DNA of 34,263 bases from a virus (IMGVR_UViG_3300025141_000383:1-34263), one strand, 5' to 3'; positions 2,463 to 34,263 are shown, numbered from the stretch's first letter. Notes: a model not told the origin generated them from the letters alone. Numbers and translations are program-made.

Positions 2463-3149
2463 ATGTTATTCGTAGAAGACTTCGGAAGAAGAACTAGGAT
2501 CGGTGGGACAGCGATGACATCGATCATGGGTGTCAATAAGTACCAATCAAGAGATCAGGTCTTAGGTTATTATGCGCGAGCTGACCCTGGCCCTAAGGAT
2601 TACTACAAGATGGAGTGGGGACGTAGGCTTGAGGACCCCGTGGCGATTGCCTACGCAGAGAAGAACGATTGTCGTCTGATGGACCCGGCTCAGGAGGTAG
2701 CTGATGGGCTACTCCCTGGGCCGGTAGTGGTCCACCCTGACTATGACTTCTTAGCCGGTACTCCTGATAGGTTCGTGTACGCTGATAAGAGATATAGATA
2801 CCGGACGGAACATCGTAACGGAAATAAAATCATGCGTATTACCGGGGGGTTATCGCATGGCTTGGAGGTAAAGACTAGCAACGCATTCAAGGAGAAGTAC
2901 ATTCTTAATAAGTTAGATGACACGTGGATTATCCAGGGGCAATACTACATGCTTCTGACAGGGCTGGATAGGTGGGATTTTGCTGTGTTATGTGGTGGTC
3001 AGGTATACTGTGACCCTACTCACTTCAAGGATGAGACCGTTGACTGGCCGTCCTACAGTCTTAAGGCCGACCCATTTCTGCATGCGGAAATGATTGATAA
3101 GGCTATAGAGTTCTGGGAGGAGGTCAAGAATGTTCGGAAAAAAAAGTGA
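2463..3149 (+). CDS. YqaJ-type exonuclease (PD-(D/E)XK recombinase)
   Basis: The 228-residue product matches YqaJ / lambda-exonuclease-like nucleases that resect double-stranded DNA to give the tails used by an annealing protein. Visible landmarks are RRTRIGGTAMTSIMG near the N-terminus (family GGSDIAAILG-like motif), Glu57 in a RLEDPVAIAY helix, the GTPD motif with Asp102, the LEVKT motif with Glu135 and Lys137, and the downstream QGQYYMLLTG helix with Gln158/160. All metal-binding positions expected for the fold are present. GGAGG sits about 6 nt before the ATG, and the start is 1 nt from the stop of the small membrane gene. Together with the Rad52-type protein and SSB it forms a recombination module on one transcript. 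Confidence 0.87.
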   Translation: MLFVEDFGRRTRIGGTAMTSIMGVNKYQSRDQVLGYYARADPGPKDYYKMEWGRRLEDPVAIAYAEKNDCRLMDPAQEVADGLLPGPVVVHPDYDFLAGTPDRFVYADKRYRYRTEHRNGNKIMRITGGLSHGLEVKTSNAFKEKYILNKLDDTWIIQGQYYMLLTGLDRWDFAVLCGGQVYCDPTHFKDETVDWPSYSLKADPFLHAEMIDKAIEFWEEVKNVRKKK

Positions 3150-3733: not shown

Positions 3734-3991
3734 ATGCCTGCAAGAAGAAAGCTCTCAGCAGGAGGTCATGTCGAGGAGTCTGGGAACACGACGAAGACGA
3801 CTATTGGGACGACGGAGAAGACGCCTGGGAAGAAGAAGACGAAGACGATCAGTATAGGGACGGGGGAGATGGGGATCTTGAGGAGGAACGGTATACCGCT
3901 AAGAGAAGTTTTGCCGGTCATAAAGATGGCCAAGGAACTACTGGGATGTACCATCGTTGGCGCAAAGGGAAAGCCGGAAGGCGATGCTTAG
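3734..3991 (+). CDS. Hypothetical basic protein (85 aa), overlapping a second open frame
   Basis: An ATG at 3734 preceded by GGGGAGG (5-nt spacer) opens an 85-residue frame. The first half is Thr/Lys/Gly-rich and low in complexity. The second half (IPLREVLPVIKMAKELLGCTIVGAKGKPEGD) looks like a folded segment: it is quoted here only by residues about 52-82, with an amphipathic helix centred on PVIKMAKELLG. A second frame, 3682-3996, is also open throughout and would encode a strongly acidic protein (runs of Asp and Glu) from an ATG inside the preceding gene. I prefer the basic frame because it has the better ribosome site and ends with an 8-bp overlap onto the lipoprotein start, but coding in both frames cannot be excluded. 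Confidence 0.55.
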   Translation: MPARRKLSAGGHVEESGNTTKTTIGTTEKTPGKKKTKTISIGTGEMGILRRNGIPLREVLPVIKMAKELLGCTIVGAKGKPEGDA

Positions 3992-5126
3992 ACTAGCCGC
4001 TCTGTTGCTGTTACTCATGTCATGCGAAGACCAGATCACTCTTCGGGGCACCGTATGCAATGCAGAGTGCTACCTGGGACCTGACGGCACGGCCAGCGTT
4101 GGGATATGTGAGATGGGCAAGTCTGTATGCGATGGCGACATTCTGATTGAGTGCAGGGACCAAGTTCTACCGGCCACTGAGGTGTGTGATAACATTGATA
4201 ATGACTGTGATGGTGAGATTGATAATGGCCTGCCTGCTGATGGGGTATGTGGTACTGATATCGGTATTTGTCAGTCTGGTCTGGTAACCTGTACGCTTGG
4301 TGATTGGGAGTGCGTCGGAAGTGTCGGCCCTGAAGAAGAAGTATGCGATGGGCTTGATAATGACTGTGATGGTGAGGTAGATACCGCCGAGATCATAGGG
4401 TTTTGCTACGATGGGGACACCCAGGACCTCATGAATGGTGATTGCCATGCTGGGATGATATTCTGCATGAGCGGTGAGGAAACGTGCGTCGGGCAGAAGA
4501 TGCCGACCACAGAAATGTGTGACGGAATAGATAATGATTGCAATGGGTTAGTGGACGATGGACTGGAGACCACTACTGACACCGTGTTCATTCTTGATGT
4601 ATCTGGAAGCATGGGTGGTATGTTAGGAGACTCGCTTGACGCGATGGATCTTTATGTGTCAAGGTATATCGGAGATGAGGACCACCAGTTTGGGCTGGTG
4701 ATCCTCCCTCATGCCAACGTATCTAACCCACAACCAGAACTTGTGGCTGATGTCATGATAGCAGAGGACTTCTTGCCCGTACTAACCACCATATTCATCA
4801 ACAATGCGGGAGATGAGCCAAGCTATGATGCCCTCCATGATGCACCGGACAATCTGGGCATAGGGTGGAGAGAGGACGCACAAGCCTATCTGGTGCTCTT
4901 TACGGACGAACCAGGGCAATCCTACCGGAACCCACCGATAACCGAATCTGACGCCTCTCTGGAACTCTCAGAGGCATCCATTGCTACATGGGTCTTTACC
5001 AAGTCTAATGCCTTTACTTCCTACGATGAGATCACCATCATGACTGGTGGTGAGCTGCATGTTATGATGACTTCGTTCATCATGGATCAGGAGATGTCTA
5101 ACTTGCATGCAGAGGAATGTTATTAG
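3984..5126 (+). CDS. MopE-repeat / von Willebrand A lipoprotein
   Basis: The 380-residue product begins with a lipoprotein signal (Leu-rich stretch then LMSC, with Cys14 as the lipidated residue). The residue after Cys is Glu, so inner-membrane retention by Asp+2 is not indicated. Three copies of a MopE-type metal-binding motif follow (CDNIDNDCDGEID, CDGLDNDCDGEVD and CDGIDNDCNGLVD, near residues 67-82, 120-133 and 178-193) among paired cysteines. From about 198 on is a vWA-like domain with a complete DxSxS metal site (DVSGSMG, Asp205) and a YLVLFTDE strand. Both modules normally bind divalent metal and mediate adhesion at bacterial surfaces. The ATG at 3984 is chosen because it gives a short, proper signal peptide. 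It is the last gene of the rightward arm. A role at the host surface, such as superinfection exclusion, is inference. Confidence 0.85.
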   Translation: MLRLAALLLLLMSCEDQITLRGTVCNAECYLGPDGTASVGICEMGKSVCDGDILIECRDQVLPATEVCDNIDNDCDGEIDNGLPADGVCGTDIGICQSGLVTCTLGDWECVGSVGPEEEVCDGLDNDCDGEVDTAEIIGFCYDGDTQDLMNGDCHAGMIFCMSGEETCVGQKMPTTEMCDGIDNDCNGLVDDGLETTTDTVFILDVSGSMGGMLGDSLDAMDLYVSRYIGDEDHQFGLVILPHANVSNPQPELVADVMIAEDFLPVLTTIFINNAGDEPSYDALHDAPDNLGIGWREDAQAYLVLFTDEPGQSYRNPPITESDASLELSEASIATWVFTKSNAFTSYDEITIMTGGELHVMMTSFIMDQEMSNLHAEECY

Positions 5127-21875: not shown

Positions 21876-22613
21876 CTAGCAGTCAGTATGCGTGAATGTA
21901 CCAAGCGTTATCGTAGCTTTCAGCTCGTATGTGGTTCCGTCAAACATGCAGATACACAATCCAGAGCCAGCGGCGATATGCCTGTAGTACATCACTCCAT
22001 CATGTGCATCTGTGGTACATGTGGCAGTAGACGCATCCTCGATACGACCCGTCCCTGTTACGTCCAGGTCGCCAGTCATAGTTACGGCTCCATTCCCAAC
22101 GACTAACTCATCATCGCCGCCGCCAGAATCGAGGGTAATGGTTGAAGTGGCTATTGTCTCTAATAAGATCAATGCAAGTGAATTCGAGTTGCCCGCACAT
22201 TTTGTATTTCCATCCTTGTTACAAAGACCAGAGCAACAATCCGCGCCGACGGTGCAAGCGTCCCAATAAGCGCCACCGTCGCCATTGGCGATACAAGACG
22301 TGACCGTGTTCTGTCCTGTCTTTATCTCAAACTTTCTGCTCGCCTCTATGGTTTGCGAGCCATAGTTAGCGGCAGTATCATTTGATACACCCGACCCCGT
22401 TACAGAATCGGAAATAAGAATACCGCCATTCGATCCGCCGAGTTCAGTAACGATAGCAGAATCAGATGATAGCGCCCCCGTCATCTCACATCCGGCCAAG
22501 GCACAGTACAGTGACCCTAGAGCCCCTTCATTTAGCCCGCTGCCGGTAATACTTGCCGCCATCGCTATCGGAGCAGCAAGCAAAACAAGGACAACCAGAA
22601 TTTTCTTTCTCAT
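21876..22613 (-). CDS. Exported protein with a Cys cluster (245 aa)
   Basis: The 245-residue product has a Sec signal (KKILVVLVLLAAPIAMAAS). A Gly/Ser/Thr-rich body follows, with a CTVGADCCSGLCNKDGNTKC cluster near residues 118-137, whose CC-G pattern matches the 220-residue protein, and a C-terminal unit (DGVMYYRHIAAGSGLC) of the same type as in the 77-residue protein. The start codon shares a base with the preceding stop (TAATG). The shared pieces suggest that the three proteins evolved by domain shuffling in place. No enzymatic motif is seen. Confidence 0.7.
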   Translation of the reverse strand: MRKKILVVLVLLAAPIAMAASITGSGLNEGALGSLYCALAGCEMTGALSSDSAIVTELGGSNGGILISDSVTGSGVSNDTAANYGSQTIEASRKFEIKTGQNTVTSCIANGDGGAYWDACTVGADCCSGLCNKDGNTKCAGNSNSLALILLETIATSTITLDSGGGDDELVVGNGAVTMTGDLDVTGTGRIEDASTATCTTDAHDGVMYYRHIAAGSGLCICMFDGTTYELKATITLGTFTHTDC

Positions 22614-22993
22614 TACCTAGCTCCTATACAGGTCAATGTGACACTCCCACCTGAGATGCACCGCAATGGACCTATGAGATCAACCGTGATCGCTGCATCT
22701 ATGCAAGTAGCTGCAGTGCAGATTGGGTATCCCTTGTCAGATGTATTAACATCATCTCCACCAATGAATACTTGCGTTGCTGAAGCATTCATGCATCGAA
22801 CTGACTTGTAGCTGGGAACTGCATCCGATACTACGGCTACACCACCAACCGCCGTAGTACAATCAACCTGGAAGGCTCTTGCTTTGCTAAGCGGATTTGC
22901 CAGGGCGTTAACTTCTTCAGATGGCATAAGCATGAACCATACTCCAAGCACTGCAGTAGTGGCCATCCCTATCCATAGTTTCTTACTTCTCAT
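22613..22993 (-). CDS. Exported protein (126 aa)
   Basis: The ATG overlaps the portal stop (ATGA). The 126-residue product starts with basic residues and a hydrophobic helix (LWIGMATTAVLGVWFMLM), a signal peptide or an anchor. The rest contains six cysteines, beta-type strands (SVRCMNASATQVFIGGDDV, about residues 64-83) and a final SGGSVTLTCIGA unit. It opens the cassette of exported products. No known family. Confidence 0.65.
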   Translation of the reverse strand: MRSKKLWIGMATTAVLGVWFMLMPSEEVNALANPLSKARAFQVDCTTAVGGVAVVSDAVPSYKSVRCMNASATQVFIGGDDVNTSDKGYPICTAATCIDAAITVDLIGPLRCISGGSVTLTCIGAR

Positions 22994-24819
22994 TGCGGTT
23001 CTCCTTGAGGCATCATGGCCTGTTGTTGCTGAGCCATCATGGCCTGTTGCTGCGCTATCTGGCTATACATGTCAGAAAGCCCCCATAAGGGTGTTATATC
23101 TATCTCGCCCATGACCCCAAGAGAGCTTATCGCATCCATTATGATATCTGCAGCCATGGCTGGATCTACATTGGGAAGGGGCTGTTGCGGTATACCAGAC
23201 AGAGCAGCCTGTATCTGGCCGTTGACCATTGAAACCATCGAGGCTTGATCAGATGTCATGTCTAGGCCAGTAAGAGATCGCTCTGGTAAAGTGTTCGGGT
23301 CTTCGAGACCCATCTGTGCTCTCTCGACGATATCTTTGGCCTTCTGAGCATGATACCTTTCCATACCTGTTCTTGGTTCCAATCTAACATCTATACCCTG
23401 AATATCCGCTCCTATGAAGGTAATGCTACTTATGCTCTTATCTTCGCCTACGATTCTTACTATCCTGGGGTGGTCATAGAATGAACGTACAAGATGTAGT
23501 GTGTTCTGCCATAGTATGATAAGGAACTTCTCAATGTGTCTTGCCGTACCAGCATGCTTCATGTTATCTAGCTGACTAAGATATGCAATCTGCTTGGCCG
23601 AGGTGCCTGACTTGGCGCTCTCTGCGCCAGTCAGTACCTCATTAAGGCCAGCAATATCGTAGAGTCTCTGTTCAAGTCGATCTCTGTCTCTGAATAGAAT
23701 CTCATTTATTTTTGGTGGATCTAACCACCTTATCATCTGGGCTTTTGCTGGGTCATCAATCTTCATGATGTGATTACCGCTCTCCCAGGCTTCTGCTACC
23801 CCACCAGGGGCCAGCAGTCTCACCGATCCCGTATCCCTTCTGAGCTTAACCAGCACAGACTCAATCTCATTTATCTGACGCTGAATGGGTACAGCATCAT
23901 TCATCCATGTGTCACCGTATACTGTGCCACGAATCTGGCCCACCCTGAAGAGGGAAAGAGGAAGAATGCTTCGAGTCATCTTAGACTCTGGATCTTCCAG
24001 GTAGGGGAATGTGTAGGGATAGTCCATGTGCTCAACTACATTGCCACTAACCGCTAGAGCATAGACACCCTTCTTGACCCTTGAGTCAGGTCTATACCAA
24101 AGCTCATACACCTTAACACCAGTTCTGGTATCAAGATCATTGATGCTGTATTCCTCCTCCTGTACATCATCCTCCATGCCTATCTTCTTGAGCATCGCCT
24201 TGGCTTCATGCACATCAACGTATCGATGAAATAGAACCCACTTAGCATTGTCAGGATCTTCTTCCTGATCGATGTAGAAGTCGAATACAGTAACTACATC
24301 CCATCTGACTTCGTTCTTATCTGGATCGAATACGGCCTTAATACCGCCCATGCCATGGGAACAGGCAAGACGAAGTATGTCGAACATCTTCTGGTCTATA
24401 TTGTTCTCTGCTTCGATAAACTCAATGATGCTCTTGGCCGTTTCTGCAGCATCAATATCGCGTTGCTCGGCACTACTCGGATAAGCCGTTACGGCTGGTC
24501 GATCCTGAAGGAGCCTGGAGCACCAGGTTAATACGAGGTTTCTTAGAAGGTTATGGAATACCTGAGGTATCTCACTGTTCCACGGGATGTCCTCAATCGT
24601 ATTAGACCTATTATCAACATCCCTGAACTGATCACCATTGACATGGAGTTCATTCCTTCGAGCCAAGGTAAGGAATCTATCACTAGATTTCTTACCTTGA
24701 TCTTCGAGTTCATTGATCAGACCAAGTATCGTTAGACCAAGACTAGATGCACTTGGCTTAACTAGATCTATGTCCTTACCGGTTAGGCTATTCGTCTGGG
24801 TCATCGTATTCCATCTCAT
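22990..24819 (-). CDS. Portal protein
   Basis: The 609-residue product is the dodecameric portal candidate through which DNA is packed and ejected. Features include an N-terminal helical region with NEIPQVFHN-like packing, a central segment LFRVGQIRGTVYGDTWMNDAV followed by a long helix (PIQRQINEIESVLVKLRR, about residues 300-320), the GLNEVLTGAESAKSGTSAKQ loop (about 395-415), and a Met/Gln-rich C-terminus (QQQAMMAQQQQAMM). Length and order with terminase and scaffold fit P22-type portals. The first ATG (24819) overlaps the upstream stop by 32 bp; an ATG at 24804 is an equally weak alternative, since neither has a good ribosome site. Confidence 0.85.
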   Translation of the reverse strand: MRWNTMTQTNSLTGKDIDLVKPSASSLGLTILGLINELEDQGKKSSDRFLTLARRNELHVNGDQFRDVDNRSNTIEDIPWNSEIPQVFHNLLRNLVLTWCSRLLQDRPAVTAYPSSAEQRDIDAAETAKSIIEFIEAENNIDQKMFDILRLACSHGMGGIKAVFDPDKNEVRWDVVTVFDFYIDQEEDPDNAKWVLFHRYVDVHEAKAMLKKIGMEDDVQEEEYSINDLDTRTGVKVYELWYRPDSRVKKGVYALAVSGNVVEHMDYPYTFPYLEDPESKMTRSILPLSLFRVGQIRGTVYGDTWMNDAVPIQRQINEIESVLVKLRRDTGSVRLLAPGGVAEAWESGNHIMKIDDPAKAQMIRWLDPPKINEILFRDRDRLEQRLYDIAGLNEVLTGAESAKSGTSAKQIAYLSQLDNMKHAGTARHIEKFLIILWQNTLHLVRSFYDHPRIVRIVGEDKSISSITFIGADIQGIDVRLEPRTGMERYHAQKAKDIVERAQMGLEDPNTLPERSLTGLDMTSDQASMVSMVNGQIQAALSGIPQQPLPNVDPAMAADIIMDAISSLGVMGEIDITPLWGLSDMYSQIAQQQAMMAQQQQAMMPQGEPQ

Positions 24820-26619: not shown

Positions 26620-28041
26620 CTACCAGTCCTTCTTCTTAGTCAGGAATCGATTCATATCAAAGACTCCTTCTTTCTTCTCAGGAGCCATAACCAAAGGGTT
26701 CCTTCTTATGTCTTCCAGCGCGAAACCTATGGCCATGCATAAGTCCTTTTTGCCAGCAAATCTCTCTCTGTTATCAATATGAAGGCTGTCACACTCCTCT
26801 GCTAGTTCTATGGGTCCAGATATTATACCCGATTCTACTGCGTTCTTAGCCATGAGAAGCCCAGAATACCTACTTGAGTCAGTAGTCTTCACTTCCATGA
26901 CCGGAACCCCCTTATCTCTTGCTGATTGAGCGGTAGCGAGACCGATCCCGTTAACCTCAACACACACGTGATCTGGGCCAAAAATCTCATAGACGGCTCT
27001 TATTTTGCTGGATAGTAGGTCAATGGTGTCTTCTTGGCTATGATACGATGCGACCAAAGAGCCATCCATTCTATCGAGTACCACAATCGTACTTGCGTCC
27101 TGACCAATGCCTCCCGATGTATCGACACCTACCGAGTATTTAGTTGAGGCATTACGCGGCCTAAATACCTTGATCTCCCTCTCAAGTGTATGCTCCAGTA
27201 CAGGAGGAGTTATATGTATCCACCGGCCCTCTGCAGACTGGAATGCATGCTCGGGTCTTTGTGGGTATTCCCTAAGGCACCGGAACATATCACCACTGAA
27301 CCTGTTCTCTAGTACAGTAAAGAACCATCTCATTGCGCGAGGGTCCGTAAACCCGAGTTCTCTTCCCTGCTCAAGAAGATCGTCCGGTAAGTCCCCATCG
27401 GCCCTATAGGCCGAATGGGACTCAATCGAGAAGAACACTTTCCTGAAGTTATTACTGTTGTGCCATAGATGCCATAACAGGTCACCGGGGCCGGAACTGG
27501 TCGATTCGATTATGATAGGTGCTGAGAGGCCCGCAGAGGCCGTGAGAGCGCCGAACGCCTTCTGGTCGGGCCAGAATGCCAGCTCCGATAAGTGGAGCAT
27601 CTGGTAGCTCATAGAGCGACCGGCCTTAGACTCCTCTTGTCCCTTAGACGCATTGGCCGTTAAGGCGTGGATCTCTGACCCATTGGCTAACTTGATTCGA
27701 GAGCGGTTACTGATAGAGGTCTGTACTCTTAGCTGGGTAAGGAAGTTACGAACCCTATCCAGCAAACCATGACACTTTTGTTCTGTGTCAGCAACAACAG
27801 CAACGAAGGAGCCAGCATGTAGGAAGGCATACATGGCATCAAGGAAACATATCGCCATCGAGCACCCAATCTGACGGCCCTTCAGGAACACCACATTCTT
27901 ATTATCATTGATGGTCTCGAATATGCTCTTCTGTTCCTCCAGAGGAATGAATGGAACCGGCTTACCTGTACGTTGATCTGTCACCGTACAGATACTAGCC
28001 AGTTTAATAAGTTTGTTAGGACTGGGAAAATCTGAACTCAT
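26620..28041 (-). CDS. terL: Terminase large subunit
   Basis: The 473-residue product is the packaging motor with ATPase and nuclease parts. The Walker A loop is KGRQIGCS (residues 54-61). The Walker B strand with the catalytic Glu is MLHLSELAFW (148-157, Glu153). The coupling motif region IIIESTSSG is at about 177-185. The RNase H-like nuclease begins at YSVGVDTSGG with Asp307; a second acidic position lies in the CVEVNGIG strand (about 360). Length is typical. A large terminase with this ATPase pattern can belong to headful or end-specific systems, and I do not assign the type. It starts 102 nt after the upstream gene, beyond a hairpin and palindrome. Confidence 0.93.
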   Translation of the reverse strand: MSSDFPSPNKLIKLASICTVTDQRTGKPVPFIPLEEQKSIFETINDNKNVVFLKGRQIGCSMAICFLDAMYAFLHAGSFVAVVADTEQKCHGLLDRVRNFLTQLRVQTSISNRSRIKLANGSEIHALTANASKGQEESKAGRSMSYQMLHLSELAFWPDQKAFGALTASAGLSAPIIIESTSSGPGDLLWHLWHNSNNFRKVFFSIESHSAYRADGDLPDDLLEQGRELGFTDPRAMRWFFTVLENRFSGDMFRCLREYPQRPEHAFQSAEGRWIHITPPVLEHTLEREIKVFRPRNASTKYSVGVDTSGGIGQDASTIVVLDRMDGSLVASYHSQEDTIDLLSSKIRAVYEIFGPDHVCVEVNGIGLATAQSARDKGVPVMEVKTTDSSRYSGLLMAKNAVESGIISGPIELAEECDSLHIDNRERFAGKKDLCMAIGFALEDIRRNPLVMAPEKKEGVFDMNRFLTKKKDW

Positions 28042-28654: not shown

Positions 28655-28750
28655 GTTGTCTTACCTTTGACTACATGAACCTATTTTTGGCCCTGGGGTG
28701 TATGTGGCTGAGTATACTTCAGGCGGAGGGTGTAGTCATGGACCTTTAAG

Positions 28751-28766
28751 GTTAGTGAGCACTAAC
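28751..28766. repeat. 7-bp inverted repeat, 2-nt spacer
   Basis: GTTAGTG-AG-CACTAAC, followed at once by two more TAAC units (to 28773). Operator-like, about 97 bp upstream of the leftward arm's first start codon. Confidence 0.7.
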
Positions 28767-28788
28767 TAACTAACTCCTGTCAATCTGA

Positions 28789-28838
28789 TGACGCGTCAAT
28801 CCTATGGCCCGTCACCCAGATGGCACGTCAATCCTATG
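28789..28838. repeat. Palindrome plus two CGTCAATCCTATG direct repeats
   Basis: TGACGCGTCA (28789-28798) is a perfect 10-bp palindrome overlapping the first CGTCAATCCTATG (28794-28806). The second copy is at 28826-28838, 32 bp (three helical turns) further on. Confidence 0.75.
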
Positions 28839-28884
28839 TCATGACGCATTGCATCAAATAAATACCAGCGAACCTGTCCGAATT

Positions 28885-28967
28885 GGCATGAGGTTTGCAT
28901 GGGGGGTGGGTAAGAGAGACATGGCATGAACCTTGCAAGGAAACCAGGTGGCACAAACCTTGCATGG
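28885..28967. repeat. Three iterated GGCA...TTGCATGG units
   Basis: Units at 28885-28902, 28923-28940 and 28950-28967 share GGCAtgAACCTTGCATGG with a few changes; the second contains the palindrome CCTTGCAAGG. The repeats are 38 and 27 bp apart, which suits iteron-type protein binding. Confidence 0.7.
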
Positions 28968-28975
28968 GAAAACCA

Positions 28976-29080
28976 CATACTGAACACCCATTCAGTATGA
29001 CACAAATGTCCTGACCTACATCTAACCACACGACATCTATGTCACACTGAACACCTTTGCGGTATGACATAGGTGTCATA
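28976..29080. repeat. Two 34-bp related units with inverted repeats
   Basis: 28980-29013 and 29047-29080 share ACTGAACACC, a GTATGACA core and TGTC in the same spacing. The first unit's region contains CATACTGAA (28976-28984) paired with TTCAGTATG (28991-28999), and the second contains TATGACA (29063-29069) paired with TGTCATA (29074-29080). The units are 67 bp apart. Confidence 0.8.
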
Positions 29081-29089
29081 CATACACTA

Positions 29090-29146
29090 ATGACTCACTG
29101 CGTCAAAGAAAACCGCATGCATGGACTATGCCATGACTCACTGCGT
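29090..29146. repeat. Two ATGACTCACTGCGT direct repeats
   Basis: Identical 14-bp copies lie at 29090-29103 and 29133-29146, 43 bp apart, with CATGG...CCATG (29120-29135 area) between them. A related ATGACGCATTGCATCA stands at 28841-28856. Confidence 0.8.
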
Positions 29147-29239
29147 TATTAGGGCAATCACACAACAATTCGCGGTAAAGACAACATAGGGCAAAATATG
29201 GCCTAACACGGGGCTAATTTCGTTTTCTTCTGTTTTTTC

Positions 29240-29257
29240 CGTGGTAAAAGTACCACG
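29240..29257. repeat. 7-bp inverted repeat in the control region
   Basis: CGTGGTA (29240-29246) pairs with TACCACG (29251-29257) across AAAG, preceded by a T-rich run. It may be an operator or an origin element. Confidence 0.65.
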
Positions 29258-29376
29258 ATTGCAAGCCGTGCCAAAAGACAAAGGCTAATGATATCAAGGG
29301 GTTATCACATTGGCTCCCAGTCTGCAATGGTAGGGGGTGTCTTCGGATATACCGATGACATAAAAGGAGGTCTCAA

Positions 29377-29664
29377 ATGAGGGCAGTACTATTATGGCAA
29401 CAGATTACAGATTCTGGGTACTTTGTGCCCAATGCCCAAGGGCAGGGATATTACGCCCTGCCAACTATGGATGATATGGAGGCTATCTATGATAGCCCCC
29501 TATCGGAAGCGACGGCGGAATCACAGGGTCAGACCTGGATAGGCCAAATGGTTGCCGTGGACGAGGCAACCTTCCTAGAAATATTCTCTGAGGGCAAGGT
29601 TTGCGTTAAGGATATTTGGGACCGAGAGTCCTACACGACCGTTAAGGAGCGGTTAGGACGCTAG
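29377..29664 (+). CDS. First early gene, hypothetical (95 aa)
   Basis: The gene starts behind AAAGGAGGT with a 5-nt spacer, one of the best ribosome sites in the window. The 95-residue product is acidic, Gln- and Glu-rich, with MRAVLLWQQI at its N-terminus, a GQGYYALPTMDDMEAIYD segment and a C-terminal helix (TTVKERLGR). No known family. Its coding sequence contains three perfect 7-bp hairpins (29441-29462, 29481-29497, 29550-29571) and a further one follows its stop. As the first gene expressed after entry it may act on the host. Confidence 0.75.
   Translation: MRAVLLWQQITDSGYFVPNAQGQGYYALPTMDDMEAIYDSPLSEATAESQGQTWIGQMVAVDEATFLEIFSEGKVCVKDIWDRESYTTVKERLGR
29441..29571 (+). repeat. Three perfect 7-bp hairpins in the first early gene
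   Basis: GGCAGGG 29441-29447 with 29456-29462 (8-nt loop); GGCTATC 29481-29487 with 29491-29497 (3-nt loop); GGTTGCC 29550-29556 with 29565-29571 (8-nt loop). All lie in coding sequence. Confidence 0.75.
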
Positions 29665-29667
29665 CTC

Positions 29668-29687
29668 GAAAGCCCTAAGGGGCTTTC
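29668..29687 (+). terminator. Hairpin after the first early gene
   Basis: GAAAGCCC (29668-29675) pairs with GGGCTTTC (29680-29687) across TAAG, 4 nt after the stop. Flanking ACGCTA (29658-29663) and TAGCGT (29693-29698) extend the structure. No clear T-run follows, so partial termination or RNA protection are both possible. Confidence 0.5.
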
Positions 29688-29736
29688 TATGATAGCGTTC
29701 TATCCCATAACACAGAGTGACAAAGGAGGTCCCCAA

Positions 29737-30093
29737 ATGGACCCATGGAAAAGGTTGGCCCTAACCGTAATCAGGGTGCAAGCTGAAATCGCAGCGGCTA
29801 AACCGCTGCGACCAAACACAGTCGATAGCCTTGAGCAAAAGGTTATCGACATGGAAGTGAAGAAGGACAATGACAGGTCCTTCGACACTAAGAACCCGGA
29901 ACGCTCCAAGCGTCAACCGGGAAAACAACGAGGACCCAAAAGGGTCCAAGAGAAATGGATTGACACCGGATATGCCGGTGCATCGGGCCCTTGGATGGTC
30001 CGTAATCCGGCCTATAAGGGGCACCGTGTGAAGGCTTCAGACATGGCTGGCTCCATGTTCAGTGAAGCCTTCACGATAGGGGGGGTGAGATGA
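29737..30093 (+). CDS. Hypothetical basic protein (118 aa)
   Basis: The ATG at 29737 follows AAAGGAGGTCCCCAA, the same leader pattern as the first early gene; an upstream start at 29689 lies in the hairpin and is rejected. The 118-residue product has a helix (WKRLALTVIRVQAEIAAAK), a charged middle with many Lys/Arg/Asp residues (about 45-75) and a C-terminal segment with YAGASGPWMVRNPAY. No motif. Its coding sequence holds at least five perfect inverted repeats, including 29789-29811 (9 bp) and 30028-30074 (11 bp). Its stop overlaps the next start (ATGA). Confidence 0.7.
   Translation: MDPWKRLALTVIRVQAEIAAAKPLRPNTVDSLEQKVIDMEVKKDNDRSFDTKNPERSKRQPGKQRGPKRVQEKWIDTGYAGASGPWMVRNPAYKGHRVKASDMAGSMFSEAFTIGGVR
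29789..30074 (+). repeat. Cluster of perfect inverted repeats in coding sequence
   Basis: TCGCAGCGG 29789-29797 with 29803-29811; GTCGATA 29821-29827 with 29844-29850, containing inner CCTT/AAGG; GGACCC 29932-29937 with 29942-29947; CACCGG 29964-29969 with 29975-29980; GTGAAGGCTTC 30028-30038 with 30064-30074, with ACATGG/CCATGT (30041-30046, 30053-30058) nested in its loop. Confidence 0.75.
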
Positions 30094-30260
30094 TTGAGAT
30101 TTTATGTTGGGTGATACCGAGTCGTCTAGAGAAAGACGACGAGGCAATGGTCTTTGGCGACCATGCCAAGACCCTGCGAGAGTTCGAGACTATTCTCGCT
30201 AAAGAAGAGTATGCCAAGACAATGGCATACGAAAAAAAGGAGAAAGATGATGGCAAGTAA
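30090..30260 (+). CDS. Hypothetical helical protein (56 aa)
   Basis: An ATG overlapping the preceding stop opens a 56-residue frame ending at 30260. The first residues (MIEILCWVIPSRLEKDDEAM) are hydrophobic; the rest is a charged helix (FETILAKEEYAKTMAYEKKEK). The frame carries four perfect hairpins (30121-30140, 30147-30164 centre, 30176-30199 and 30209-30230). No family is recognised. The next gene begins inside its last codons. Confidence 0.55.
   Translation: MIEILCWVIPSRLEKDDEAMVFGDHAKTLREFETILAKEEYAKTMAYEKKEKDDGK
30121..30230 (+). repeat. Four consecutive perfect hairpins in coding sequence
   Basis: GTCGTCT 30121-30127 with 30134-30140; ATGGTC 30147-30152 with 30159-30164; GCGAGA 30176-30181 with 30194-30199; GTATGCCA 30209-30216 with 30223-30230. 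They follow each other with few unpaired bases between. Confidence 0.75.
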
Positions 30261-30525
30261 AGTAATGTATACGGCCAACCGCCGAATCGGTGGCCCCGTA
30301 TATGAACGTAGGAACGGAACCCTCCTGTTGGTGATAGAACACCAACAGGTGATGGACAACGGGTGTCCTACTGGCGAATGCTGGTACTCAGCACCATCCC
30401 CTGATGACCTGATAAACCTCAGGTCAACAGGGGGCGAGGAAACCTGGTCCCGAGGAGGGATGACCGTTAGGTCAATCCTCCTGTGGGAGCAGGAAGACTA
30501 CTTATGGACAAAGGGATGGGCGTAG
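30250..30525 (+). CDS. Hypothetical protein (91 aa)
   Basis: The ATG at 30250 follows AAGGAG with a 7-nt spacer; an ATG at 30247 is adjacent. The 91-residue product has a beta-type N-terminal half (YTANRRIGGPVYERRNGTLLLVIEH, about residues 7-31) and ends with MTVRSILLWEQEDYLWTKGWA-like aromatic sequence (about 70-91). The RSILLWEQ part resembles the RAVLLWQQ start of the first early protein, a short match that may be chance. Hairpins: 30324-30349 (10 bp), 30405-30426 (8 bp), 30453-30482 (11 of 13 pairs), and 30513-30533 (9 bp), whose arms enclose the stop codon. Confidence 0.65.
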   Translation: MASKVMYTANRRIGGPVYERRNGTLLLVIEHQQVMDNGCPTGECWYSAPSPDDLINLRSTGGEETWSRGGMTVRSILLWEQEDYLWTKGWA

Positions 30526-30533
30526 CCCATCCC
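30324..30533 (+). repeat. Series of inverted repeats ending across a stop codon
   Basis: CCTGTTGGTG 30324-30333 with 30340-30349; TGACCTGA 30405-30412 with 30419-30426; 30453-30465 with 30470-30482 (11 of 13 pairs); GGGATGGGC 30513-30521 with 30525-30533, 3-nt loop. The last structure lies just before the ribosome site of the next gene. Confidence 0.75.
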
Positions 30534-30548
30534 AGAAAGGAGGCCACA

Positions 30549-30764
30549 ATGAAGTGGCTCGAAACGTGTAGAGGGTTCACCCATGACCCCAGCACGGGGG
30601 TTCTGAGGGAAGACACCCTCGCATCCAAGCGGGGTGTCCCTCGGGAACCTCGCTTGACAGGCGAGGAAAGAGAGAGACCGACCCGTCCCGACGGGGCGGT
30701 CATCATAACCCACAACGGTGCCCAGGTGTATATCTGGGTACCTGAAGAGGAGGCAGTGAGATGA
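30549..30764 (+). CDS. Hypothetical protein (71 aa)
   Basis: The ATG at 30549 is preceded by GAAAGGAGG; a longer frame from 30483 would run through the upstream hairpin. The 71-residue product is rich in Arg, Glu, Thr and Gly with a beta-type C-terminus (AVIITHNGAQVYIWVPEEE). Hairpins inside: 30648-30666 (6 bp) and the near-perfect 12-pair stem 30676-30701. Stop overlaps the next start (ATGA). No known family. Confidence 0.65.
   Translation: MKWLETCRGFTHDPSTGVLREDTLASKRGVPREPRLTGEERERPTRPDGAVIITHNGAQVYIWVPEEEAVR
30648..30701 (+). repeat. Two GC-rich inverted repeats in coding sequence
   Basis: CCTCGC 30648-30653 with 30661-30666; then GACCG-CCCGTC 30676-30687 with 30690-30701, one A/G mismatch in twelve pairs and a 2-nt loop. 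Confidence 0.65.
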
Positions 30765-31021
30765 TGGGAAGAGTAAGTCAAGGGGCAGTTGTAGAGAGGT
30801 TCTCACATGTATGCGAGAACCAGCTAGATTTATTCACACGGAGGTACTCAAAGGGAAGCGCAGAGAACCTGACCCAAGCAGGGCAGATTATATGGGAGCA
30901 CCTGTGTAATCTGGACGAGGACCGTATAGCGAAGATGAAGGATGTAACAATCCTCGAGTTCGCGGATGCTTATGGGAGGGCGAAGGGAGATGGATGGAGG
31001 AGGTTCACCAATGATAAATAA
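30761..31021 (+). CDS. Hypothetical protein (86 aa)
   Basis: The 86-residue product looks helical and soluble, with VSQGAVVERFSHVCENQLDLF at the start and TILEFADAYGRAKGDGW near the end. Perfect 7-bp inverted repeats occur at 30798-30821 and 30884-30913. Two tandem ATGs start the gene at the preceding stop. No motif recognised. Confidence 0.65.
   Translation: MMGRVSQGAVVERFSHVCENQLDLFTRRYSKGSAENLTQAGQIIWEHLCNLDEDRIAKMKDVTILEFADAYGRAKGDGWRRFTNDK
30798..30913 (+). repeat. Two 7-bp inverted repeats in coding sequence
   Basis: GGTTCTC 30798-30804 with 30815-30821 (10-nt loop); CAGATTA 30884-30890 with 30907-30913 (16-nt loop). Confidence 0.6.
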
Positions 31022-31454
31022 AGGCAAATGTCTGCGGATGGCCGATGCCTTCCGCAGACATAGAGCCTGGACCTACACCCACCATGACCCGGTGGAGAAT
31101 GGTCCGGTCCTCAGGGAGATGAATGACCGTGGGTTCACGGTCAACGTCTCCTGCAACGGGGTCGACCACCTGGACTGGGTGGCGGCTAAGAACCTGGGCG
31201 TGCCACTAACGGTGGCGCTACCGTCAACGGTGGAGGCATTCAAGGCAATGACCACCGAGGGAGGAACGAAGATAGTGAGATGCCCAGCCGAATGGGACAA
31301 GGGGATGACCTGCCAACGATGCGGAAAGGGCGAGCCCCTATGCTATAGACGGGACCGGAATTATGCCATTGGCTTCATCGCCCATGGCACCAAGTATAAG
31401 GCTATCGATGAGGCCATAGGAAAGTTCAAGAAAGGGTTGAAGGTGCTGACATGA
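31011..31454 (+). CDS. C-terminal-half-like part of a known phage Cys/His family (147 aa)
   Basis: The ATG at 31011 follows GGAGGAGG. The 147-residue product contains YTHHD (residues 22-26), GFTVNVSCNGVDHLD (41-55), PLTVALPSTVE, then CPAEWDKGMTCQRCG and a further Cys (Cys91, Cys101, Cys104, Cys111) and GFIAHGT (121-127). In the phage family I recognise (DUF7227-type proteins), these motifs form the C-terminal half of a single protein whose N-terminal half carries the SCPxxCPxxxxGCY and RHNxxGDLP motifs. Here that N-terminal half is the separate next gene. Four cysteines plus histidines suggest a metal or cluster site. The biochemical role of the family is not known to me. Confidence 0.65.
   Translation: MINKGKCLRMADAFRRHRAWTYTHHDPVENGPVLREMNDRGFTVNVSCNGVDHLDWVAAKNLGVPLTVALPSTVEAFKAMTTEGGTKIVRCPAEWDKGMTCQRCGKGEPLCYRRDRNYAIGFIAHGTKYKAIDEAIGKFKKGLKVLT
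31028..31142 (+). repeat. 11-bp and 8-bp inverted repeats in coding sequence
   Basis: ATGTCTGCGGA 31028-31038 with 31051-31061 (12-nt loop, inner GGC/GCC pair); TGACCGTG 31124-31131 with 31136-31143 (4-nt loop). Confidence 0.75.
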
Positions 31455-31726
31455 TTGAGACATACGGGATTGTCGACGTGAGTGGCAATCGTAAGACGGG
31501 TCCAGTCGTAGTGACCAGGACATCGGAAGAATCCTGTCCCGATGAATGCCCATTCAAGGGGCACGGTTGCTACGGCGATAACTTCCATGCTAGAATGGTA
31601 TGGGACAAGGTGACGAACGGGACCGCGAAGAAATGCGGGGACTTCAACTGGTTCATAAAGAACATCCGGGCTATGCCCCCGAGTATAATCCGACACAACG
31701 AGGTAGGTGACCTACCGATGACATGA
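31451..31726 (+). CDS. N-terminal-half-like part of the same phage Cys/His family (91 aa)
   Basis: The start overlaps the preceding stop (ATGA). The 91-residue product has KTGPVVVTRTSEESCPDECP (about residues 15-34), GHGCYGDNFHARMVW with Cys40, and ends with IIRHNEVGDLPMT. Cys29, Cys33 and Cys40 plus the RHNxxGDLP motif are the N-terminal signature of the family whose C-terminal motifs are in the gene before. The normal order in one polypeptide would be this half first. Together, the two products have the full set of cysteines and histidines, so they may assemble into one complex. Confidence 0.65.
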   Translation: MIETYGIVDVSGNRKTGPVVVTRTSEESCPDECPFKGHGCYGDNFHARMVWDKVTNGTAKKCGDFNWFIKNIRAMPPSIIRHNEVGDLPMT

Positions 31727-32678: not shown

Positions 32679-32748
32679 TTGACTTTACCCTGTCAGTACC
32701 GGTATGCCTAAGGGCATACCGGTACTGACAGGGTAACAGGAGGAAAAC
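32679..32748 (+). promoter_or_regulatory. Possible promoter overlapping a 24-bp perfect inverted repeat
   Basis: TTGACT (32679-32684) is a good -35 box. About 18 nt on stands TATGCC (32703-32708), a poor -10, inside the left arm of the inverted repeat. A ribosome site AGGAGG follows the repeat at 32738-32743. If a promoter operates here, a dimeric regulator bound to the repeat would cover it. Confidence 0.35.
32685..32736 (+). repeat. Perfect 24-bp inverted repeat, 4-nt loop
   Basis: The left arm 32685-32708 and right arm 32713-32736 are exact complements, with loop TAAG. The arms begin TTACCCTGTCAGTACC. There is no T-run behind it. It lies in the only sizeable gap of this part of the operon and would form a very stable RNA hairpin or a cruciform. 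Confidence 0.9.
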
Positions 32749-33746: not shown

Positions 33747-34263
33747 TGCACATGCAGAGAAGTTGAAGGGTATAACCAAAGAGCTGGATAAGGGTCTAGA
33801 CCCTACCAATGTGGCGAAGCGCAGGAGCATGGGTGGTTCGGGAGAACTGTCCTATGTCGAGGGTCACTACGTGATCGACACGGCCAATCGAATCTTCGGA
33901 TTCGATGGCTGGCACCTGAAGATCAATTCCCTGGAGCTGGTCTCCAAGGAGGAGAGGGAGGTCAAGAAGTACAATGACACCAAGACAATGTACGGGTGTC
34001 ACTGCGTTGCTCGCGTCCAAGTGGACGTGGACCTGGGCTCCACCACCGTATGTAGGGAGGACGTGGGGTATGGCAGTGGGATCTCCTACAAGGGACCTGC
34101 CGATGCTCTGGAGCTTTCCCATAAGGAGGCCATCACTGATGCGATGAAGCGGGCATTCCGCACCTTCGGGAACCAGTTCGGGAACTCTCTCTATATGAAG
34201 GACAACCCACTACACTCAGGCGGGCACGATGCCAAGGGCAAGGTGTCTACCAGGGTTACGAAT
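33736..34263 (+). CDS. Rad52-type single-strand annealing protein, N-terminal part
   Basis: The ATG at 33736 follows AAGGAGG with a 6-nt spacer. The frame is open to the window end and joins the frame at 1-332 to give about 234 residues. Visible are GELSYVEGHYVIDTANRIFG (about residues 36-55), the FDGWHLKINSLEL strand, CREDVGYGSGISYKGPADALELSHKEA (about 108-134, the signature YGxG region) and the ITDAMKRAFRTFG helix. This is the Rad52/Rad22 fold, a ring-forming annealing protein. It overlaps the preceding small gene by 11 bp. Confidence 0.9.
   Translation, partial: MTDNAHAEKLKGITKELDKGLDPTNVAKRRSMGGSGELSYVEGHYVIDTANRIFGFDGWHLKINSLELVSKEEREVKKYNDTKTMYGCHCVARVQVDVDLGSTTVCREDVGYGSGISYKGPADALELSHKEAITDAMKRAFRTFGNQFGNSLYMKDNPLHSGGHDAKGKVSTRVTN
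34109..34263. repeat. Terminal redundancy, right copy
   Basis: This stretch duplicates 1-155 with T at 34137 where the left copy has C at 29. See the left copy for the meaning. Confidence 0.95.

Follow-up and report, generated by a model that had tools for sequence, protein, structure and literature searches.

INTRODUCTION

Short inverted repeats occur in prokaryotic genes at a small genome-wide excess, which is credited to template switching (Ladoukakis and Eyre-Walker, cited in PMC4060949). The mitochondrial coding sequences of Nematomorpha contain palindromes of up to 284 bp that are gained and lost dynamically, with template switching as one proposed mechanism (PMC6649704), and work on reconstructed ancestors has led to the inference that a single template switch can yield a perfect RNA hairpin stem (PMC8794818). 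Template switching is thus the published explanation for an excess of short inverted repeats and has been proposed for coding palindromes (PMC4060949, PMC8794818, PMC6649704).

Here, we describe a 1.7-kb patch of early genes in the IMG/VR virus record IMGVR_UViG_3300025141_000383, the whole 34,263 bp of which constitute the window analyzed. Like the repeats of prokaryotic genes, those of the patch are short, perfect, located in coding sequence, and more frequent than expected, but where a small excess spread over genomes has been described (PMC4060949), we find one of about 12-fold or 5-fold, depending on the control, within a single patch. The patch shares with the palindromes of Nematomorpha that perfect inverted repeats lie in open genes with both arms coding, whereas its arms are of 7 to 12 bp, closely packed, and carried by putative genes of a phage (PMC6649704). 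Among phages, MS2 and Qbeta likewise have coding sequence that is strongly folded on both strands (z scores of about -10 to -15), but they have RNA genomes and few perfect arms of at least 7 bp. Phage N4 also carries hairpins in its early region, in the form of early promoters; unlike these, the patch has neither a shared hairpin sequence nor a defined genome end, and no virion RNA polymerase was found among the large open reading frames (ORFs) scanned. Our literature search, which covered the field in part, returned no report of such a hairpin patch in a double-stranded DNA (dsDNA) phage.

RESULTS

The window carries a 155-bp terminal direct repeat (1-155 and 34109-34263) with one mismatch between the copies, and the contig is, going by its sequence, probably circularly closed; the mismatch may be why circularity was overlooked in the record's own classification. 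End repeats of 99 to 127 bp are present in most complete related contigs. Late genes run leftward from 28654, and early genes run rightward from 29377, across the contig join, to about 5126. The early block encodes a single-stranded DNA-binding protein (SSB), a sigma-like factor, a DnaB/RepA-like ATPase, and a YqaJ-type exonuclease. The P22-like portal suggests headful packaging, and in a contig that is closed on itself there would then be no reason to expect the genome to end physically near 29.4 kb. The features to which we refer are as follows.

22990-24819, leftward: P22-like portal gene, late block
26620-28041, leftward: terminase gene, late block
28700-29376: divergent intergenic region upstream of the patch, likewise enriched in inverted repeats (5 versus 0.6 expected)
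29377-31143, + strand: hairpin patch, opening the early operon, six ORFs and the 5' part of a seventh
29377-29664, 29737-30093, 30090-30260, 30250-30525, 30549-30764, 30761-31021, and 31011-31454 (5' part only), + strand: patch ORFs
29441-29462: hairpin, arm 7, loop 8
29481-29497: hairpin, arm 7, loop 3
29550-29571: hairpin, arm 7, loop 8
29668-29687: intergenic hairpin past the first stop codon, arm 8, loop 4, resembling a terminator but lacking a T run
29789-29811: hairpin, arm 9, loop 5
29821-29850: hairpin, arm 7, with 4 further pairs inward beyond one G-T pair
29862-29883: hairpin, arm 7, loop 8
30028-30074: two-tier hairpin, outer arms of 12 bp, inner stem within the 23-nt interval
30121-30140: hairpin, arm 7, loop 6
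30209-30230: hairpin, arm 8, loop 6
30324-30349: hairpin, arm 10, loop 6
30398-30433: hairpin, 8 + 6 bp interrupted by an A/A mismatch, with a perfect core at 30405-30426
30513-30533: hairpin, arm 9, loop 3, holding the stop codon (30523-30525) of ORF 30250-30525
30612-30638: hairpin, arm 7, loop 13
30798-30821: hairpin, arm 7, loop 10
30884-30913: hairpin, arm 7, loop 16
31028-31061: hairpin at the start of the gene for the C-terminal half of DUF7227, arm 11, loop 12
31124-31143: hairpin in the DUF7227 gene, arm 8, loop 4

Most patch ORFs are preceded by a clear Shine-Dalgarno sequence. Neither Pfam nor PHROGs gave a match for any of the six ORFs upstream of 31011, and the structure predictions for two patch proteins were of low confidence.

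Some features outside the patch deserve mention in their own right. The early-strand product of 3957-5126 combines DNDCDG-type repeats with a VWA/MIDAS-like motif, DTVFILDVSGSMG, an uncommon cargo in a phage of 34 kb; L002 apparently codes for a protein resembling it. The divergent intergenic region contains iteron-like repeats of the GACGCGTCA type (28755-28860), and clusters of TGACG(C/T)GTCA akin to these are found at two L002 sites (about 920-1060 and 2980-3100). A perfect palindrome with 24-bp arms and a 4-nt loop, without a T run, lies between ORFs at 32685-32736; its arms are the longest of any hairpin found in the genome, and an Rfam scan of it returned sub-threshold microRNA matches only.

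For all sequences, an inverted repeat was defined by perfect Watson-Crick arms of at least 7 bp and a loop of 3 to 20 nt. By this definition, the stretch from 29441 to 31143 holds 17 nonoverlapping perfect inverted repeats with arms of 7 to 11 bp, to which the hairpin at 30028-30074, with its 12-bp arms and 23-nt loop, comes in addition. Dinucleotide shuffles gave 1.34 ± 1.25 (maximum 6; n = 300), a codon-order shuffle gave 2.4 ± 1.2 (maximum 7), and permutation of synonymous codons over 29377-31454 gave 3.18 ± 1.42 (maximum 9; n = 1,000), so that the excess is about 12-fold over the dinucleotide shuffles and 5-fold over the codon permutation. With arms of at least 8 bp, 8 repeats are present in the patch versus 0.3 to 1.8 in the controls. 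The excess is real and strong, and it is confined to short spacers: observed and expected numbers are 9 and about 0 for spacers of 3 to 6 nt, 5 and 0.3 for 7 to 12 nt, and 3 and 0.7 for 13 to 20 nt, while neither inverted repeats with spacers above 20 nt nor direct repeats at the same short distances were in excess in the patch. The hairpins overlap one another less than expected (0 versus 3.6; P = 0.02), and comparison across the patch revealed no common arm or loop sequence. The rest of the same genome is about two-fold enriched in inverted repeats.

The first-pass annotation had described early genes saturated with inverted repeats, one of them enclosing a stop codon, and this description holds, as do all six of the example coordinates it gave. 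It counted six genes where seven ORFs overlap the stretch, and its chance expectation of one or two repeats agrees with the shuffles but is below the value of about 3 given by the codon-preserving control.

Folding against shuffles had been proposed there as a check; local folding, with pairing limited to a span of 60 nt, sets the patch clearly apart from its controls, with a z score of -15 to -17 on the + (coding) strand, -13 on the - strand, and -13.6 against the codon-preserving permutation. Stem quality differs little between the strands, G-U is depleted among the predicted pairs, and mismatches at stem edges showed no preference for G-U over A-C. We had at one point taken strand symmetry and G-U depletion as an argument against selection at the RNA level; this argument was withdrawn after controls with MS2 and Qbeta, which fold with z scores of -8 to -18 over both strands and are depleted in G-U too. 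Strand symmetry therefore does not decide between RNA and DNA. Folding in the patch is as strong as in these two phages, but its 17 perfect arms of at least 7 bp compare with 2 to 6 per 1.5 to 1.8 kb of MS2/Qbeta, and no comparable excess of perfect arms was seen in stretches of the single-stranded DNA phages phiX174 and M13. The two perfect-stem tetraloops of the patch, TAAG and GGTT, are neither UNCG nor GNRA. Ribosome-binding sites are as open as the patch mean or more so, and the start codons at 29737 and 30549 would sit in hairpin loops of the predicted structure. The patch contains no Rfam family match and no intrinsic terminator (a stem and, behind it on the transcribed strand, a U run) that we could find; the single terminator-like site found on the + strand, 29199-29216, lies upstream.

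DUF7227 (PF23872) is split and swapped at 31011-31726: the upstream ORF, starting at 31011, corresponds to profile positions 92 to 220 and the next ORF to positions 3 to 86, with an ATGA overlap, while six phages and L006 have the domain in a single gene and in normal order. DUF7227 is also the sole patch gene with many homologues. Both arms of the hairpin at 31028-31061 encode nonconsensus residues of DUF7227, whereas at 31124-31143 the conserved FTVN motif falls in the 3' arm and residues of lower conservation in the 5' arm. The ArdC-like gene of a related phage, described below, shows a similar mixture, with some palindromes in which only one arm falls on a conserved motif, the other coding for variable residues.

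Relatives of the patch itself are scarce. Single-protein searches of IMG/VR, some with alignments, covered patch ORFs 29737, 30250, 30761, and 31011 as well as 33235, downstream of them, and found no relative close enough; phage and plasmid collections gave no DNA match, and no genome contigs were obtained for the terminase or ArdC-like protein. No more than one distant relative is known for the six ORFs that precede 31011. For ORF 30761-31021, a 45% identical homologue in one relative has its hairpin in a different position. When inverted repeats were set against their aligned counterparts over the family (327 comparisons), 552 pairs were broken, while in 36 pairing survived a change on both sides, and divergence was about the same in arms (0.132) as in flanks (0.148); most of these are background repeats, part of them compared with more than one relative, and they bear only indirectly on the patch. 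Stems elsewhere in the family are thus not maintained. Over the family, amino acids encoded by arms are conserved to the same degree as the gene average, and arm asymmetry is weak (percentile, 0.60 ± 0.04 for arms of at least 9 bp, with no signal for arms of at least 7 bp). None of 51 clustered-substitution events between near-identical relatives was an inverted copy of nearby sequence.

Hairpin density was further compared by the richest 1.7-kb window of each genome. This holds 3 repeats in T7, 7 in lambda, 9 in N4 (first 40 kb), and 6 to 8 in seven relatives; enrichment in the relatives is milder (1.2- to 3.9-fold). Apparent peaks in L006, L009, L011, and L014 were rejected because they stem mostly from repeated counting of a single (TC)n/(GA)n hairpin; this long hairpin lies in the early region of these four relatives, about 5 kb upstream of the terminase gene. 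One of nine related genomes, IMGVR 3300008624_000042, has a comparable patch, with 17 repeats per 1.7 kb at 22001-23700 (L016 3730-5430), in early genes other than those at 29377-31143. Its ArdC-like antirestriction gene has 8 hairpins, versus 0 to 2 in seven homologues. The phenomenon therefore recurs, at a nonhomologous place, and since an independent assembly, 3300008952_000326, is identical to this second patch, the latter is not an assembly accident. In addition, the richest window of the Myxococcus phage Mx8 (L047; 2901-4600) holds 14 repeats versus 3.4 expected, and the Prochlorococcus phage P-SSP3 (L069) has a rich stretch at 43528-45075 (8 versus 1.6 expected), both milder than the patch and both in small, mostly hypothetical genes.

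DISCUSSION

We tentatively favor the view that mutation of locally high intensity has produced the palindromes of the patch and that the early module has retained them. In the course of replication, repair, or recombination, a growing strand would fold back on, or switch to, a nearby complementary copy, and its extension as a reverse-complement copy would leave a short perfect palindrome, a quasipalindrome or template-switch mutation. The target would be a fast-evolving, weakly constrained module of early genes, in which palindromes may persist wherever reading frames stay open. We infer that the mechanism is mutational, that its products arise or are retained at a higher rate in this module, and that no dedicated function attaches to the hairpins. 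Several observations favor template switching: the confinement of the excess to inverted repeats with spacers of at most 20 nt, with no excess of direct repeats; the likeness of both strands without preference for G-U, a pattern that is not exclusive, as it is found in single-stranded RNA (ssRNA) phages as well; the long perfect arms, in excess even of ssRNA phages of similar fold strength; the milder enrichment of the genome and its relatives, with a second patch in other genes; and, in the family, stems that are not kept, together with arms of unequal conservation in DUF7227 and the ArdC-like gene. Other observations count against it, namely, the lack of inverted copies among the 51 substitution events, the weakness of arm asymmetry over the family, and the nonoverlap of the hairpins, since selection for mutually compatible hairpins would give the same pattern. 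Repeated local inverted copying had been one of three ideas of the first-pass annotation; it fits best of the three, with support that is indirect.

Alternatively, the first early transcript may have been selected to stay almost fully folded in local hairpins, much like the genome of an ssRNA phage, for example, as protection from host or defense endoribonucleases or to control how long the mRNA lasts and how it is translated. We consider this a serious rival, though a doubtful one. A coding-strand z score on a par with MS2 and Qbeta, in which strand symmetry and low G-U are also seen, speaks for it, as do the dependence of the fold on the arrangement of synonymous codons, the open ribosome-binding sites, the lack of overlap between hairpins, and the start of the patch at the first early gene. 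However, the arms are longer and more perfect than those of ssRNA phages, and neither tetraloop belongs to the UNCG or GNRA class, on which grounds we lean towards copying over energy-driven selection. Also, the sister patch lies in other genes, most relatives have none, and in the family homologue of 30761-31021, the only such homologue compared, the hairpin is placed differently. The earlier suggestion of structured first transcripts thus gains from the fold strength and loses from strands that are alike, G-U pairs that are not favored, and the lack of conservation in the few comparisons available. Its most specific form, a dsDNA phage that folds its first early transcript through the synonymous codons and the amino acids it uses, as armor against RNA-cleaving defenses or as an expression clock, we regard as slightly more doubtful still.

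A function at the DNA level is improbable in our view. Hairpins or cruciforms that form in single-stranded or supercoiled DNA as it replicates, recombines, or enters the cell, and whose structure is recognized irrespective of sequence, would agree with the similarity of the strands and the mostly Watson-Crick pairs, and single-stranded DNA is to be expected in a phage that encodes an SSB, a YqaJ-type exonuclease, and a DnaB/RepA-like ATPase. Yet the hairpins share no arm or loop sequence and have no fixed place between relatives, and phiX174 and M13 lack such an excess. For the N4-type single-stranded entering end that had been proposed, the closed contig and P22-like portal give no ground for a genome end at the patch, and an RNA polymerase domain was absent from the largest ORF (1,355 amino acids) and the other large ORFs scanned; this idea is not supported. 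Ordinary regulatory hairpins (terminators, attenuators, or translational switches) clustered in a compact operon might account for the intergenic hairpin at 29668-29687 and for the two start codons in predicted loops. With 15 of the 17 hairpins wholly within reading frames, the only terminator-like site of the + strand upstream, and no Rfam match, this would explain few of the hairpins and seems very unlikely. Least credible of all is an artifact of assembly or amplification, such as inverted chimeras from multiple displacement amplification. The patch is known from one metagenomic contig, of which no second copy was found, but reading frames, start signals, and overlaps are all intact across 17 palindromes, and the comparable patch is the same in two independent assemblies.

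In conclusion, the hairpins seem closer to scars of a palindrome-forming copying error than to a conserved device. So far, the excess of short inverted repeats borne by genes has been a faint signal, seen in statistics. A 1.7-kb patch that tiles seven open genes, together with a sister patch that includes a conserved antirestriction-like gene, would offer a concentrated natural case in which to ask whether palindromes are made by mutation or kept by selection. If they are selected, the early mRNAs of a phage would be structured like the genomes of RNA viruses.
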